From: Phyllobacterium phragmitis
GTDB taxonomy: Bacteria; Pseudomonadota; Alphaproteobacteria; Rhizobiales; Rhizobiaceae
Length of the DNA: 64,000 bases
Assembly (NCBI RefSeq): GCF_002980495.1
Contig: NZ_PVBR01000007.1
Span: forward strand, 62,001 to 126,000
Reading direction: 5' to 3'
Position 1 is the first letter of the stretch. Every line of letters starts with the position of its first letter. This document shows positions 39,193 through 49,847 of this stretch, piece by piece. Under the pieces are notes generated by a model. That model was not told the origin of the DNA. It saw only the letters and a program-made list of their open reading frames with translations, and made no database searches. Both the position numbers and the translations under genes were made by a program.

Positions 39193-39489
39193 CACAAGGC
39201 CCCACAGAGAAGCAGTCCCATTTTCCTGGACCAGTTCTCCGCCTGTTGCGGATATGCAACTCCAGGGCGAGATAAAGCGGTTTCAGCAGTCGAAAACTTT
39301 ATGAGCACTGTCCAAATTCTGGAAATGCCATCGTTTCCAGAAAGACGGCACTGAATTTTTTCCTTCTTAATCAACATGTTCTGCGTTTCAGCCGAATCAG
39401 CGCCCTCAATATGCGGCGCGATCTGTGTGGCTATTTCCAGTTGTTCTCCGCGTTTTTTTAACCTGAATCCAGCACCGTCGGAGGCTGCC

Positions 39490-42400
39490 TTGATTTCCCA
39501 TTATCTGTTTACCAAAAAGAAATTACTGTCATCCGTTTCAGCCGTCATCGGTGCCGCGGTTTTCCTGCCAATGCCGGCCGAGGCGGCCTGCATCACGTCG
39601 GGACTGACGACGAACTGCGACACTGCCGCTCCCAATCCTTGGACCGAAACAATAGGTATAGGCGGCATCGACGCCCCGGACGACGAAGACAACAGAATCG
39701 TTATCGTTGAAACCGGCTCGCAGATAAATGTCAGTGAAAAAGTCGGGATATCGCTCGGTGACAACGCCAACATCACCATCAAAAGCGGCGCGAAGGTCAG
39801 CGGTACGACAAATACAGATGGAAGGGTCGGCCCTAATTGGCTGGGCTCCAACACCATCGATTTCCTCACCGCAGGGACAATGACGATAGAGGAAGGCGCC
39901 GAGGTCCTGGCGCTGGGGACCGCAGGAAATGCAGAAGCGATCAACTACACAGGGGCAGGAACCACGATCGTCAATAGCGGCCGGATCCATTCGGAGTACA
40001 CCGCAGCCATCTGGTTCGAGAATGATACTGCAGGGCGCAATACCATCATCAACAATGAGACCGGCGTGATCAGCACGGCCGTGGCAGGCGGCAATGTGAT
40101 TGGTTCCAGCCAGGACGGCAGCACGGAATTCACCAACAAGGGCCGGATCGAAGGCAGTCTGCTCTTCGCGGGCGGCGATGACATCATGCATCTGTTTGCC
40201 GGCTCGGTGATTACCGGCAACATGAATGGCGGCGACGGGACCGACCAGATATTCCTGGAAGGAGACGGGGATGATGCCCTTGACGGCAATCTCGACGGTT
40301 TCGAGGAATTCACCAAGCGAGGCTCCGGCACATGGACACTGGGCGGCACGATCGCGGGCCTCACCAAGGTCGAGATCAAGGAAGGCACGCTGGTGCTGAC
40401 CGGCAACAATTCCGATGCAGCCGGCGTCATCACCATCGACGACGGGGCTTTCCTGGCCGCGCGAGCCCAGAGCCTGCCGTCGACGGTGCACAACAACAAC
40501 GGCACGGTGCGTTTCCTGCAGACCGATGATGGAACCTATGGGGGCTCCATTTTGGGTACGGGGCATATGATCAAGGAAGATGCGGGCCGGCTGACGCTGA
40601 CGGGGGTCAATCCCTATACAGGCGGGACGCTGGTGAAAGCCGGGCTTGTGAACGTGTCCTCGGACGACAATCTCGGCGCTTTGTCAGGCGGCGTGACGCT
40701 CGATGGCGGCGGGCTGCAATTCGGCGCGGCCTTCTCCATGAAGCACGATGTGACGCTTGCAGCCGGCAATGGCACGATCGACACGATGGACAATGACAGC
40801 GCGATCGAAGGCACCATCGACGGTGCCGGCGGCCTGGCGAAGATCGGCAATGGCACGCTGACGCTGACCGGGAAAAACAGCTACAAGGGTGAAACCCTCG
40901 TCAACGCCGGCGGTCTGGTCATCGACGGCAACCATTCGGCGGCGACGGGGCTTGTGAGCGTCACCAACGGCGCGACGCTTTCCGGCAAGGGGGTCGTCGG
41001 CGGCGATGTCGCGATCGGCGATGGCGGCACCTTGAGCGTCTCCAGCGATGCGGGCGGGGCACGGGTGCTGACCATCAAGGGCGGCCTTTCCCTGCAGCAG
41101 ACCTCGACGATCGATTATGGCTACGGCCAGACGGCCGGCGGCGTACCGGCCAATGTGCTGGCGGTCAATGTCGGCGGCGATCTGACCCTTGACGGCACGA
41201 TCAACATCAACAACAGCTCGGGTGCCGCCTTCCCGATGCCCGGTCTCTACCGGCTGATCAACTATGCCGGCACATTGACCGATAATGGCGTGGTGCTCGG
41301 TGCCCGCCCGACGACAAACGACTATTTCGTGCAGACCTCGGTGGATCATCAGGTCAATCTGGTCTCTTATGTCGGCATCGACGCCAATTTCTGGGACGGG
41401 GCGGGCGGCGCACGCAACAATAGGCGGATCGAAGGCGGCGACGGCATCTGGCAGGCTGCCGGGGGCAACGACAACTGGACCGACAAGGACGGCACGATCA
41501 ACGTGCCGTTCACCGACAGCAACTTTGCCATCTTCACCGGCAAGGCCGGCACGGTGACGGTCGACACCAGCAAGGGCGATGTGCGCGCCGAGGGCATGCA
41601 GTTCGCCGTCGACGGCTATGTCATCACTGGCGGCGATATCGCCCTCGGCGGCGAACCGGCGACGATCCGCGTCGGCGACGGCACCGCGAAAGGTGCCGGC
41701 TACGATGCCACCATCGCTTCCCGGCTCACCGGCGCTGCGCAGCTGGTCAAACAGGATCTCGGCACGCTGATCCTGACCGGCGAAAACAGCTATAGCGGCG
41801 GAACGTCGGTTGCGGCAGGTGTGCTGCAACTCGGCGATGGCGGCACATCGGGCAGCATCTCGGGCGCCGTGGCACTTGCCGACGGTACCAAACTGGTCGC
41901 CAATCGCTCGGACGCGATGACGCTCAGTGGCATCATCTCGGGCGACGGCAAGCTCGTCCAGGCGGGGACGGGCACGACGAAGCTTGCCGGCGCTAACAGC
42001 TACAAGGGCGGCATCGATATCCTTGCCGGCATTCTCAACGTCTCATCCAGCGGCAATCTCGGCGATATCGCGAGCCGTGTGACGATCAATGGCGGCACGC
42101 TGCAATCCGGTGCTTCCTTCGAGACGGGCCACGCCGTGACGCTCGCCGCAGCCGACAGCACCATCGACACGCAAGCCAACAACAACACGCTGACAGGCAG
42201 CATCGACGGACCGGGCTCGCTGACCAAGACCGGCACGGGACGGCTCAGCCTGGCGGGAACCGGCACTTATGCCGGCAGGAGCATCGTCAAACAAGGTACG
42301 CTGGCGCTGGTCGGCGATGGCGACATCAGTGCGACAGGCGGGGTGACGGCGGACGCTACATTCGACATCTCGGGCATCGCTGCCGATATGACCAGCATCA

Positions 42401-44334
42401 AGGGCCTGTCGGGCGGGTCGGACGGCAGCGTCCATCTCGGCGGCAAGGAGCTCACCATTACCGCCGCCGATAACGATATCTTCCGGGGCGTCATCGATGG
42501 CGATGGCGGCCTTGACGTCACCGGCGGCGGGCAAATCCTGTCGGGTGATAACATTTATACCGGTGGCACCCATATCGCCCAGAATGCTGCGCTGCAGATC
42601 GGCAATGGCGGCACCAGCGGCAGCGTCAAGAGCGGCATTGCCATAGACGGCCTGCTCGCCTTCAACCGCTCCGATATGTTCACCGCCGATAATGCACTTT
42701 TCGGCAGCGGTACGCTGGAGCAGATCGGCAGCGGCACCACTATGCTCACCTCCGACAATTCCGGCTTCACCGGCACCACCAATATCCGCGCCGGGGCGCT
42801 GCAGGTCGATCAAATGCTCGGCGGGACGATGAATGTGCTTGCCGGCGGTCATCTGCAGGGTGAAGGCACGGTGGGTTCGACTGTCAATGCCGGCACCATC
42901 GCGCCCGGCAATGGCGGCAAGGACTTGGGCACGCTGACCATCAATGGCAATTATGCCGGTGATGGCGGTCTCATCCGGCTCAACACGGTGCTCGGCGGCG
43001 ACGATTCGCCGACCGACATGCTGGCAATTGCCGGCAACACATCGGGCGAAACCAATGTCCGGGTGATCAACCGCGGCGGGCTCGGCGCCCAGACCGACAA
43101 GGGCATCAAGGTGATCGATGTCGGCGGCCAGTCCGATGGCGGCTTCACGCTTATCGGCGACTATACCACCAAGGACGGCAAGAGCGCGGTCATCGGCGGC
43201 GCCTATGCCTACACGCTGCACAAGAACGGCCTCGCCACCCAGAAGGGTGACGGCGACTGGTACCTGCGCAGCGAATATATCTTCCAGCCCGGTGCGCCGC
43301 TTTACGAAGTCTATGGCCAGACGCTCAATCATCTCAACAGGCTGCCGACGCTGCGCGAGCGCACCGGCAACCGCTACTGGGCCGGTGCCGGCTATGTCCC
43401 GATCGCACAGGGCGACGGGCCGGGAACCATCGATCCCATCCCCTACCCGCCCGAGGATCCGGCCGATACCCGCACCGAAGCCTTCATCGAAACCGGCTTC
43501 ATCATCTGGAACCGCATCGAGGCCGCGCATGCGCACCATCGGCCCGACACGTCGACCACCGGCGCCGAATACGACATCGATATGTGGAAGATGCAGACGG
43601 GCATCGACGGTCAGTTCTACGAGGACGAGCGCGGCCGGCTGATCGGCAGCGTCTGGGTCAGTTACGGCAATGCTTCCGCCGATATCAATGCCTTCTACGG
43701 CGACGGCAAGATCGAGACCGACGGCTACGGCCTTGGCAGCGCGCTCACATGGTATGACGATGCCGGCTACTATCTCGACGCGCAGGGCCAGGTCACCTGG
43801 TTCGACAGCGATCTGAACTCGTCGACCCTGGACCGCACCCTCCTCGATGGCGACAAGGCGCTCGGTTATGCCCTGAGCAGTGAAACCGGCATCCGCTACA
43901 GCATGGACGACAGCTGGACGCTGACGCCGCAGGCCCAACTCACCTATGCCCAGATCCTGCTCGACGATTTCACCGATCCCTATGGCGCAAGGGTGAGCTA
44001 TGAGCGCAACGCCAAGCTGACGGGGCGCATCGGCATTGCCGCCAACTATCAGACCGCCTGGCAGGACCAGTACGGCTATGCGCGCCGCGCCGACCTCTAC
44101 GGCGTCATCAATCTCCAACAGGAATTCCTCGACGAGATCAAGATGAAGATCGAGGGCCATCGGCTCGCCAACAATGAAGAGAGGACGTGGACTGAAATCG
44201 GCGGCGGCGGCACCTACAACTGGAATGACGATCATTACGTGCTGTTTGGAACCCTCACCGCAGGAACAGGCCTCGCCAATATCGGCGAAAGCTACAGGTT
44301 CGCCGGAAATGTCGGATTCAAGGTGAAATGGTAA
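39490..44334 (+). CDS. Large autotransporter (type Va) with PATR-type passenger
   Basis: A surface protein of about 1,614 residues. Start TTG 39490 is chosen because GGAGGCTGCC precedes it and it yields a signal peptide, ISHYLFTKKKLLSSVSAVIG... ending MPAEA; ATG 39376 would bury that signal behind 38 residues. The passenger (about 35-1300) is a Gly/Asn/Thr-rich beta-helix with at least seven passenger repeats of the type LTLTGxNxYxGGTxVxAGxL (near 40591, 40855, 41764, 41980, 42238, 42535, 42739). The C-terminal ~285 residues (from about 43474) form the 12-strand beta-barrel translocator, ending FAGNVGFKVKW with the expected terminal aromatic. Likely adhesin or biofilm role; no protease or esterase motif seen. 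Confidence 0.88.
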   Translation: MISHYLFTKKKLLSSVSAVIGAAVFLPMPAEAACITSGLTTNCDTAAPNPWTETIGIGGIDAPDDEDNRIVIVETGSQINVSEKVGISLGDNANITIKSGAKVSGTTNTDGRVGPNWLGSNTIDFLTAGTMTIEEGAEVLALGTAGNAEAINYTGAGTTIVNSGRIHSEYTAAIWFENDTAGRNTIINNETGVISTAVAGGNVIGSSQDGSTEFTNKGRIEGSLLFAGGDDIMHLFAGSVITGNMNGGDGTDQIFLEGDGDDALDGNLDGFEEFTKRGSGTWTLGGTIAGLTKVEIKEGTLVLTGNNSDAAGVITIDDGAFLAARAQSLPSTVHNNNGTVRFLQTDDGTYGGSILGTGHMIKEDAGRLTLTGVNPYTGGTLVKAGLVNVSSDDNLGALSGGVTLDGGGLQFGAAFSMKHDVTLAAGNGTIDTMDNDSAIEGTIDGAGGLAKIGNGTLTLTGKNSYKGETLVNAGGLVIDGNHSAATGLVSVTNGATLSGKGVVGGDVAIGDGGTLSVSSDAGGARVLTIKGGLSLQQTSTIDYGYGQTAGGVPANVLAVNVGGDLTLDGTININNSSGAAFPMPGLYRLINYAGTLTDNGVVLGARPTTNDYFVQTSVDHQVNLVSYVGIDANFWDGAGGARNNRRIEGGDGIWQAAGGNDNWTDKDGTINVPFTDSNFAIFTGKAGTVTVDTSKGDVRAEGMQFAVDGYVITGGDIALGGEPATIRVGDGTAKGAGYDATIASRLTGAAQLVKQDLGTLILTGENSYSGGTSVAAGVLQLGDGGTSGSISGAVALADGTKLVANRSDAMTLSGIISGDGKLVQAGTGTTKLAGANSYKGGIDILAGILNVSSSGNLGDIASRVTINGGTLQSGASFETGHAVTLAAADSTIDTQANNNTLTGSIDGPGSLTKTGTGRLSLAGTGTYAGRSIVKQGTLALVGDGDISATGGVTADATFDISGIAADMTSIKGLSGGSDGSVHLGGKELTITAADNDIFRGVIDGDGGLDVTGGGQILSGDNIYTGGTHIAQNAALQIGNGGTSGSVKSGIAIDGLLAFNRSDMFTADNALFGSGTLEQIGSGTTMLTSDNSGFTGTTNIRAGALQVDQMLGGTMNVLAGGHLQGEGTVGSTVNAGTIAPGNGGKDLGTLTINGNYAGDGGLIRLNTVLGGDDSPTDMLAIAGNTSGETNVRVINRGGLGAQTDKGIKVIDVGGQSDGGFTLIGDYTTKDGKSAVIGGAYAYTLHKNGLATQKGDGDWYLRSEYIFQPGAPLYEVYGQTLNHLNRLPTLRERTGNRYWAGAGYVPIAQGDGPGTIDPIPYPPEDPADTRTEAFIETGFIIWNRIEAAHAHHRPDTSTTGAEYDIDMWKMQTGIDGQFYEDERGRLIGSVWVSYGNASADINAFYGDGKIETDGYGLGSALTWYDDAGYYLDAQGQVTWFDSDLNSSTLDRTLLDGDKALGYALSSETGIRYSMDDSWTLTPQAQLTYAQILLDDFTDPYGARVSYERNAKLTGRIGIAANYQTAWQDQYGYARRADLYGVINLQQEFLDEIKMKIEGHRLANNEERTWTEIGGGGTYNWNDDHYVLFGTLTAGTGLANIGESYRFAGNVGFKVKW

Positions 44335-48911: not shown

Positions 48912-48940
48912 TTAATGACATAAAGATATGTTTATGTCAA
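48912..48940 (-). promoter_or_regulatory. metH promoter with embedded operator (SahR-like inverted repeat)
   Basis: On the minus strand, TTGACA (48940-48935), 17 bp, CATTAA (48917-48912). The spacer contains GACATAAA (48917-48924) and its perfect inverse TTTATGTC (48931-48938) around GATATG, an inverted repeat overlapping both promoter hexamers. This resembles sites of ArsR-type regulators that sense S-adenosylhomocysteine and control methionine-cycle genes; the regulator is not encoded here. The rest of the 318-bp gap (48864-49181) shows no gene. Confidence 0.6.
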
Positions 48941-49140: not shown

Positions 49141-49171
49141 AAAGAGGGCGGAAAATAAGCGAACCGCCCTC
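49141..49171 (-). terminator. Terminator after the riboswitch-controlled ORF
   Basis: GAGGGCGG (49144-49151) pairs with CCGCCCTC (49164-49171); on the minus strand it is followed by only three T residues, so it is a modest terminator. It lies 10 bp past the stop of the small ORF and would separate that transcript from metH. Confidence 0.55.
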
Positions 49172-49181
49172 ACTGAATGCC

Positions 49182-49424
49182 CTAATTCCGCAGCGGTCCC
49201 GCGAGCGTGGCGATCAAGGCAAGGAACATGGCCCGCAATTGATGCGGGCCGGCCAGATTGCCGCGATAGCGGTCGAGCTTGCGCACCTCTTCCGCGGCGG
49301 CGGCGGCCATGTCGGCTTCTTTCGGCAACCACAGCAGCCAGGCGAGAAAGATATCTTCCGGTGTTTTTTGCGCGGTATCACGATGTTCCGCGATCGTTTT
49401 GGCTTGAAGTCCGGCAGTACGCAT
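49182..49424 (-). CDS. Uncharacterised 80-residue protein downstream of a cobalamin riboswitch
   Basis: Not recognised. The sequence (MRTAGLQAKTIAEHRDTAQK, then EDIFLAWLLWLPKEAD and EEVRKLDRYRGN, ending ALIATLAGPLRN) suggests a small helical cytoplasmic protein with an amphipathic LAWLLWLP helix and no signal peptide. It has no CbtB-type histidines and no membrane helix. ATG 49424 has GGGGATTTTG upstream; an in-frame ATG at 49469 adds 15 residues but lacks a ribosome site. It is the only gene between the B12 riboswitch and a hairpin, so it should be repressed when cobalamin is plentiful. Real-gene status rests on that context and a sensible amino-acid composition. Confidence 0.5.
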   Translation of the reverse strand: MRTAGLQAKTIAEHRDTAQKTPEDIFLAWLLWLPKEADMAAAAAEEVRKLDRYRGNLAGPHQLRAMFLALIATLAGPLRN

Positions 49425-49560
49425 CAAAATCCCCGATGATGGCGGCGGGGAATGTTCAAGCGCACGCATGCCGAAAAGCGAATGAAGAACACCCGAAGCA
49501 AGCGATACACCGGGACACCCCGCCCGTTGACCTATTCGCGGACGTTTTCACGTCCATTAT

Positions 49561-49812
49561 CGGGGCAGGTCTCCTGGCTCACAGGTCATCGCCGCTGTCT
49601 GGCCTTCCCGATCCGTCAACCGGACCAGTGACTTTTGTTTAGCGGCATTTTGCGACGCCAAATGTTCCACCTGGCTGCAAAATACTACTTAAGCGACAGC
49701 AACTCGCTGCATACAGTTGCGGGGGCAGCGCCGGCCTTGCGCTCCAAAGATGGAGTGCGCACCGGCTTCCCTCTTAGCCTTCTCGCCGTTTCCGACTCGA
49801 AAGAACCTCGAT
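49561..49812 (-). promoter_or_regulatory. Cobalamin (AdoCbl) riboswitch
   Basis: On the minus strand the conserved blocks occur in order: GGTTCTTTCGAG (49808 down), AAGAGGGAAGCCGGTG, GCTGCCCCCGCAACTGT, the GTCACTGG segment, CGGGAAGGCCAGACAGCGGCG and the B12 box GAGCCAGGAGACCTGCC (49581-49565). This is a complete element of about 250 nt. A hairpin GGACGTGAAAACGTCC follows (about 49555-49540). The expected effect is repression by adenosylcobalamin of the gene that follows at 49424. Confidence 0.92.
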
Positions 49813-49818
49813 GGCTCC

Positions 49819-49847
49819 ATTAGCACCGCGGGTTTCGATCATGTCAA
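49819..49847 (-). promoter_or_regulatory. Promoter of the cobalamin riboswitch transcript
   Basis: Minus strand TTGACA (49847-49842), a 17-bp spacer and GCTAAT (49824-49819). The predicted start, about 49811, coincides with the first conserved riboswitch block, which supports both calls. Confidence 0.7.

Follow-up and report, generated by a model that had tools for sequence, protein, structure and literature searches.

On the minus strand of a 64,000-nt stretch of the Phyllobacterium phragmitis genome (contig NZ_PVBR01000007.1, positions 62,001 to 126,000; hereafter the window), we identified an open reading frame (ORF) of 80 codons directly behind a cobalamin (B12) riboswitch. This small ORF is a genuine gene under purifying selection, and its product, judged by sequence, belongs to a family for which no library searched gave a match and which sits nearly always behind a B12 switch. 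While the type of switch is known, the class of target behind it is undescribed, and the small gene most likely represents a family of B12-scarcity proteins that is new and falls into none of the four target classes distinguished in one published survey. As to its role, we propose, at a probability of slightly below 0.4, that the unit is a dedicated B12-scarcity gene with a small helical binding protein as product, which would act on idle B12-dependent machinery, with MetH as the likeliest client.

A preliminary description, made from the letters of this DNA alone, had expected codon-level conservation of the ORF, and this was found. Within the window genus, the mean ratio of non-synonymous to synonymous polymorphism (pN/pS) was 0.28 for the small gene versus 1.47 and 1.59 for the two other frames of the same DNA, and third positions accounted for 57 of its 109 variable sites; in five clades, pN/pS ranged from 0.16 to 0.43. 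An alternative upstream start at 49469, giving a protein of 95 residues, was rejected, since the start of the 80-residue form and its leader, ATCATCGGGG(A/T)TTTTGATG, are identical in five aligned members of the genus.

The small gene was detected in 9 of 61 genomes (the window genome counted) in the first search, and in 74 of the 394 genomes and 28 of the 109 genera of the window's family in a profile search. Wider profile searches gave 7 positive genomes among 347 of the order and 2 among 385 of the class, with three of the order genomes and one of the class genomes belonging to the window's own family. Six matches beyond the family, which are not counted among the 78 homologues described below, were inspected roughly: a same-strand riboswitch lies 2–3 kb upstream in L136 and L138, about 4 kb upstream in L137 (with an oxygenase gene, a reductase gene and, by eye, a formaldehyde dehydrogenase-like gene in between), about 5 kb upstream in L140 and about 5.7 kb upstream in L139, and no same-strand riboswitch was seen upstream in L141 (41 bits, another order). 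Four plasmid records carry the small gene, which is labelled ‘hypothetical protein’ in one and unannotated in the other three.

In agreement with the preliminary description, in which the ORF resembled no B12 protein, no match above chance was detected for the small protein in Pfam, NCBIfam, PHROGs or PDB sequences. The window protein gave no Pfam row and a single chance-level NCBIfam row (E 0.05–0.07); for 55 family members, the best Pfam row had an E-value of 0.0056 and concerned one member only. Sequence homology to families of B12 synthesis, B12 transport or cobalt transport was likewise absent from Pfam and NCBIfam searches. Recognizable kinship with the cap region of MetH, or with MetH, NrdA, NrdB, the oxygenase or the reductase, was considered and rejected, as profile comparison (hhalign) gave nothing. 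The AlphaFold model, with a mean predicted local distance difference test score (pLDDT) of 80.1, contains confident helices at residues 22–32, 39–52 and 58–75 after a loose N-terminal part, and no confident structural relative was detected with Foldseek or VIA-align. A metal-based role is unlikely, as Cys is nowhere widely conserved in the family and His occupies only 21 of 55 rows in a single column; with no conserved Cys/His set and no enzyme family, the product would rather be a helical binding protein. Two sub-threshold copies, L130 and L133, look decayed, with a likeness to the family that extends no further than the first or second helix; of these, L130 lies behind nrdB, with no riboswitch found upstream.

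To define the genetic setting, the surroundings of all 84 profile matches in the family were examined in stretches ending about 7 kb upstream and about 5 kb downstream of the small gene, and six matches under 24 bits were set aside. A same-strand cobalamin riboswitch lies within 4.6 kb upstream in 77 of the remaining 78 homologues, genomes of one clade not being independent, while an opposite-strand riboswitch was found in the same range in none; the rough chance expectation per locus is 0.2% (five switches in 5.4 Mb). The scan profile was seeded with 27 riboswitches, several of them from these loci, and the RF00174 model agreed at all 25 loci submitted as a check. The sole exception, L110, ends near a contig edge and, together with the second copy in L118, belongs to at least two of the 78 copies that look broken. 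Five of the six matches under 24 bits, among them L130, lack a riboswitch and one has it. The proposal in the preliminary description that homologues follow B12 riboswitches is thus borne out, and that of an undescribed protein under dedicated control gains support from a family without matches that is tied to the switch in 77 of 78 cases, whereas a B12 enzyme would be no more than a candidate partner.

The distances from switch to gene fall into three groups, of about 0.1–0.4 kb (33 copies), 2.5–2.8 kb (34) and 4.1–4.3 kb (10). These correspond to three settings: the small gene alone (33), with a Rieske oxygenase–reductase pair enclosed in the interval of about 2.5 kb (34), or with nrdA and nrdB enclosed in that of about 4.2 kb (10); one copy shows none. 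In both operons, the small gene is the last gene. Representative orders are riboswitch–nrdA–nrdB–gene–metH in Phyllobacterium zundukense, riboswitch–gene–metH in Shinella sp. PSBB067, and metH–riboswitch–oxygenase–reductase–gene in Mesorhizobium zhangyense. The ‘self-contained unit’ of the preliminary description therefore holds for the window genome, yet represents one arrangement out of three, and its 3′ hairpin is not conserved in four relatives. At 7 of the 30 Rieske loci that could be scored, the small gene starts within the end of the reductase gene, with an overlap of 4 nt up to the stop; at 4 of 8 scored nrdAB loci, it overlaps the nrdB stop by 1–10 nt.

The nature of the Rieske pair, which we take to be the ardX–frdX of Rodionov et al. 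2003, was assessed with two representatives. The oxygenase and reductase of L137 gave 488.3 and 361.5 bits against the glycine betaine monooxygenase (GbcAB) models NF058607 and NF058606, the best models listed, and both scores lie under the curated cut-offs of 670 and 500, so the substrate of the pair is not assigned. The three PDB chains closest to the oxygenase of L024 are 3n0q, 3vca and 4qup, of which 4qup is named a monooxygenase/demethylase. According to excerpts of PMC12478193, B12-dependent demethylation of betaine by MtgBCD has been shown in Ruegeria pomeroyi, the genes are present in Sinorhizobium meliloti, and elsewhere the route free of B12 is provided by GbcAB. An MtgC-like corrinoid protein was found in 40 of 40 genomes tested, each under the cut-off of that model. 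Both nrdAB and the Rieske pair thus look like B12-independent stand-ins. In L024, L089, L106 and other loci, where it lies about 2.5 kb before the small gene, the Rieske pair is a possible B12-independent backup of B12-dependent betaine demethylation, and a formaldehyde dehydrogenase-like gene was noticed by eye near the pair in L074, L103 and L137.

Remnants of these operons were detected at three loci. In the stand-alone locus L098, the start of NrdA is fused to the end of NrdB; in the stand-alone locus L115 (assembly 81% complete), oxygenase residues 1–41 are followed by reductase residues 321–363; and the stand-alone locus L017, on a complete S. meliloti plasmid and not counted among the 78 homologues, retains fragments of both nrdA and nrdB. 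Going by these remnants, the large genes are lost at the three scarred loci, and the switch and the small gene are kept. A tree of 72 rows and 82 columns separates a half with nrdAB-linked copies, which includes the window genus, from a half with oxygenase-linked copies, this split being weakly supported (72/70). Stand-alone copies occur in both halves, with at least 12 label changes, of which at least 5 are forced by well-supported branches.

We then considered which B12-dependent enzymes are present. No match to the MetE N-terminal domain was found in the window genome (it was over the cut-off in 9 of 68 genomes), short core-MetE enzymes not having been searched. NrdJ was found in 38 of 40 genomes, the window genome among them, and NrdB in 17 of 40; of the latter, the window genome has only a fragment on another contig, covering 72 of 281 model positions, and no NrdB was found in four members of the genus with the small gene. 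Without the usual MetE, with NrdB as a fragment only and with NrdJ present, the window genome would depend on B12 for both methionine and deoxyribonucleotide synthesis, as far as searched. The C-terminal NrdB fragment itself (L148, 2191–2403, contig C39) may be what is left of a class I ribonucleotide reductase that was lost.

Among six genes looked for, metH is the commonest neighbour of the stand-alone copies, and in the window it is the next gene downstream on the same strand, as the preliminary description had noted. It lies directly beside 34 of the 78 homologues. Among the 33 stand-alone loci, metH is downstream within 1.5 kb on the same strand in 21 and upstream in 3; the nrdAB loci have it downstream, in the same range and orientation, in 5 of 10 cases, and the Rieske loci have it upstream in 5 of 34. 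It is found elsewhere in the stretch at five more loci and was not seen at 39 of 78. In the window, the gap of 318 nt between the small gene and metH holds a promoter-like site and a terminator-like hairpin; the former is a conserved promoter-like TTGACA of metH itself, with a CATAAA-ATAT-TTATG palindrome. SahR sites at metH of rhizobia are described in excerpts of PMC8877191 and PMC4239095, and in our own reading the palindrome would be such a site. As controls, 19 metH loci from genomes lacking the small gene were used, 16 of them clear (72–93% identity) and 3 weaker (54–67%). The palindrome pattern was present on both strands at metH in 11 of 19, and a same-strand riboswitch within the 1.5 kb flank in 0 of 19; at L165, a weaker locus, a riboswitch lies on the other strand. 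Because metH has its own SahR-type promoter and none of the control loci has a same-strand switch, the riboswitch probably does not act on metH itself. In one clade (L062, L064, L066, L069, L070, L072, L075, L076 and L078), the ribosome site of metH is buried in a strong hairpin, CTCCGRTGCAG...CTGCAYCGGAGG, located between the palindrome and the gene; one apparent compensatory pair and one broken pair in L076 were noted, and other clades carry other hairpins there.

The elements of the unit in the window and of its neighbour are listed in Table 1.

Table 1. Positions of the small-gene unit and of metH within the window
Feature	Position	Strand	Evidence
Promoter-like site, TTGACA-N17-GCTAAT	49819–49847	minus	Read from sequence; TTGACA 49847–49842, GCTAAT 49824–49819
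Cobalamin riboswitch aptamer, RF00174	49547–49825	minus	cmscan 87.9 bits, full model 1–189
GGCGGGG strand	49518–49524	minus	Pairs with CCCCGCC 49444–49450 in minimum free energy leader fold; segment invariant in five genomes
Hairpin masking the Shine–Dalgarno sequence, TCCCCG...CGGGGA	49430–49451	minus	Local folds; Shine–Dalgarno GGGGA 49430–49434
Small protein gene, ATG start, 80 aa	49182–49424	minus	ORF, family alignments, dN/dS, AlphaFold model
Terminator-like hairpin, 8 bp stem, 12 nt loop, then TTT	49144–49171	minus	Read by eye
metH promoter-like TTGACA with overlapping palindrome CATAAACATATCTTTATG, SahR-type operator	48919–48940	minus	
metH, B12-dependent methionine synthase, 1260 aa	45081–48863	minus	NCBIfam TIGR02082 1761.9 bits, five Pfam domains

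The minus-strand order of promoter, complete riboswitch, ORF and hairpin given in the preliminary description was recovered. The promoter-like site, aptamer core, leader and start codon are all kept in four relatives of the genus; across the five aligned genomes, TTGACA and CTAATG show no variation and the core blocks of the aptamer are invariant. The promoter-like site was missed by a simple consensus scan (0 found), which requires A at position 2 of the second hexamer. The terminator-like hairpin (arms 49164–49171 and 49144–49151), not picked up by a hairpin scan restricted to loops of 3–8, falls within a window-only stretch that is lacking in the four relatives by alignment. The window riboswitch ranks fifth by score among six RF00174 matches in its genome (gathering score 31.5 bits). 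Of the other five, as judged by eye, two precede TonB-receptor-like genes, one a transporter permease gene and one a series of CbtA-, CobU- and CobW-like genes. In the genus members L020, L021 and L022, the 5′ part of the aptamer carries an insert of palindromic-repeat type in a stem, GAGCATGATCC.GAAAAG...CTTTTCGGA, and the window and L020 share another insert of about 50 nt further on. Downstream of metH, on the other strand, a frame of 1652 residues (39376–44334) appears autotransporter-like, with repeats, by eye.

The leader suggests how the switch may work. The Shine–Dalgarno sequence is paired with an upstream C-rich arm in 23 of 34 stand-alone leaders by our reading, with stem sequences that differ between clades. 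In the minimum free energy fold of the window leader, computed on a sequence that lacks the aptamer's 5′ portion, the GGCGGGG strand takes the CCCCGCC arm and so competes with the masking hairpin. The predicted structures fit a translational switch that links P1 formation to access to the Shine–Dalgarno sequence, although folding alone leaves the on-state unsettled. By analogy with the riboswitch family, the ribosome site would be masked when adenosylcobalamin is plentiful, and the small protein would be made when B12 falls.

Under such control, the target of the small protein would be idle B12-dependent machinery and not the B12-independent isozymes, because the small gene survives where the adjoining nrdAB or Rieske pair has been lost, and because the window genome keeps MetH and NrdJ, with no usual MetE and a fragment of NrdB only. 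Persistence without NrdAB or the oxygenase alongside points to a client that the cells keep, such as MetH, NrdJ or a further B12 enzyme. Adjacency is the sole argument in favour of MetH, and protection, reactivation or holding back of the apo-enzyme would all be possible. A broader formulation, which we consider doubtful, is that the family constitutes a fifth class of cobalamin-riboswitch targets: a small helical effector acting directly on apo-B12 enzymes, MetH first, that would manage the hand-over between B12-dependent and B12-independent metabolism and be kept after loss of the backup enzymes.

Several observations weigh against the proposal that the small protein serves MetH or similar machinery. 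The small protein is absent from 320 of the 394 family genomes by profile search, and 44 of the 78 homologues, including 29 of the 34 copies in the Rieske setting, are not directly beside metH. Since metH has its own promoter, co-expression with the small gene is not required, and the adjacency could reflect a general clustering of B12-switch operons. Comparison by hhalign with NrdA, NrdB, MetH, the oxygenase and the reductase gave probabilities of 0.2% or less, and in G262 and G267, both with the small gene, neither NrdJ nor NrdB was found. In the leader fold, the Shine–Dalgarno sequence is still paired, to CCCCGAT at the 3′ edge of the aptamer. MetH is a candidate partner, inferred from gene context.

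NrdAB and the GbcAB-like oxygenase are both iron and oxygen enzymes, and the small gene stands last in both operons, with start–stop overlaps in 7 of 30 Rieske (4 nt) and 4 of 8 nrdB (1–10 nt) cases. An assembly factor or chaperone of NrdAB and the GbcAB-like pair would account for this arrangement, the stand-alone copies being remnants or serving a partner elsewhere. Yet 33 of 78 copies are alone behind their own switch, the losses took the enzymes and spared the small gene, and nrdB and the small gene lie on separate contigs in G184 and G339. Moreover, selection in the window genus is purifying despite an NrdB fragment in the window genome and no NrdB in four members. We therefore regard an accessory function as unlikely. 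A brake or regulator for B12 starvation with another target, such as NrdJ, MtgC-type corrinoid proteins, RNA polymerase or the ribosome, is improbable as well.

The order riboswitch–ORF–metH at 21 of 33 stand-alone loci resembles that of a translated leader, or upstream ORF (uORF), setting metH expression, for which the metE and ppe2 riboswitches of Mycobacterium tuberculosis, in excerpts of PMC11260477, are a precedent. Such a role is very improbable in view of protein-level conservation even without metH downstream, of the 12 of 33 stand-alone copies that lack metH within 1.5 kb downstream, and of intergenic distances of 65–909 nt, with the SahR-type palindrome in the short gaps shown. A chance ORF behind a riboswitch serving another gene might explain the lack of matches above chance in Pfam, NCBIfam, PHROGs and PDB sequences; its probability is negligible against codon-level selection, occurrence in 28 genera and a conserved start and Shine–Dalgarno hairpin, and it was rejected on the homologues in 74 of 394 family genomes and on purifying selection.

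Compared with known systems, the unit combines familiar and unfamiliar features. Cobalamin regulons, in excerpts of PMC3766115, comprise four target classes: B12 synthesis, transport of B12 or its precursors, cobalt transport, and isozymes of B12 enzymes. The window riboswitch conforms to such regulons in having a full aptamer over the gathering score, directly before a gene, and a leader that masks the Shine–Dalgarno sequence, but the small gene fits by sequence none of the classes given there. The isozyme operons of B12 switches (nrdAB and the Rieske pair) make up two of the gene's three settings, whereas in the window these enzymes are absent and the gene is alone behind the switch. As with the riboswitch-linked uORFs of M. 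tuberculosis metE and ppe2 described in the same excerpts of PMC11260477, a small frame lies in the window between a B12 switch and a further gene; in contrast to them, it encodes a member of a conserved protein family that occurs at the ends of operons as well, and metH has its own promoter-like site. The oxygenase–reductase pair of the sister locus L137 is likewise best matched by the GbcAB models but falls short of both curated cut-offs. Among the matches listed in openly licensed literature (titles and starts of abstracts), no description of the small gene was found, nor does the excerpt of PMC9600662 hold anything on it.

B12 riboswitch regulons are usually read in terms of synthesis, uptake, cobalt and isozymes. 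A conserved small protein that is almost never found without the switch and that outlives the isozymes points to a response to B12 shortage, so far unstudied, that rhizobia and related bacteria mount at the protein level, and its sister operons suggest that the Rieske pair may be a B12-independent stand-in for B12-dependent betaine demethylation. Its small size, the sharp predicted inducing condition and the few candidate partners make the proposal quickly testable. The small gene looks like a previously unrecognized part of the way in which rhizobia-like bacteria cope with B12 shortage.
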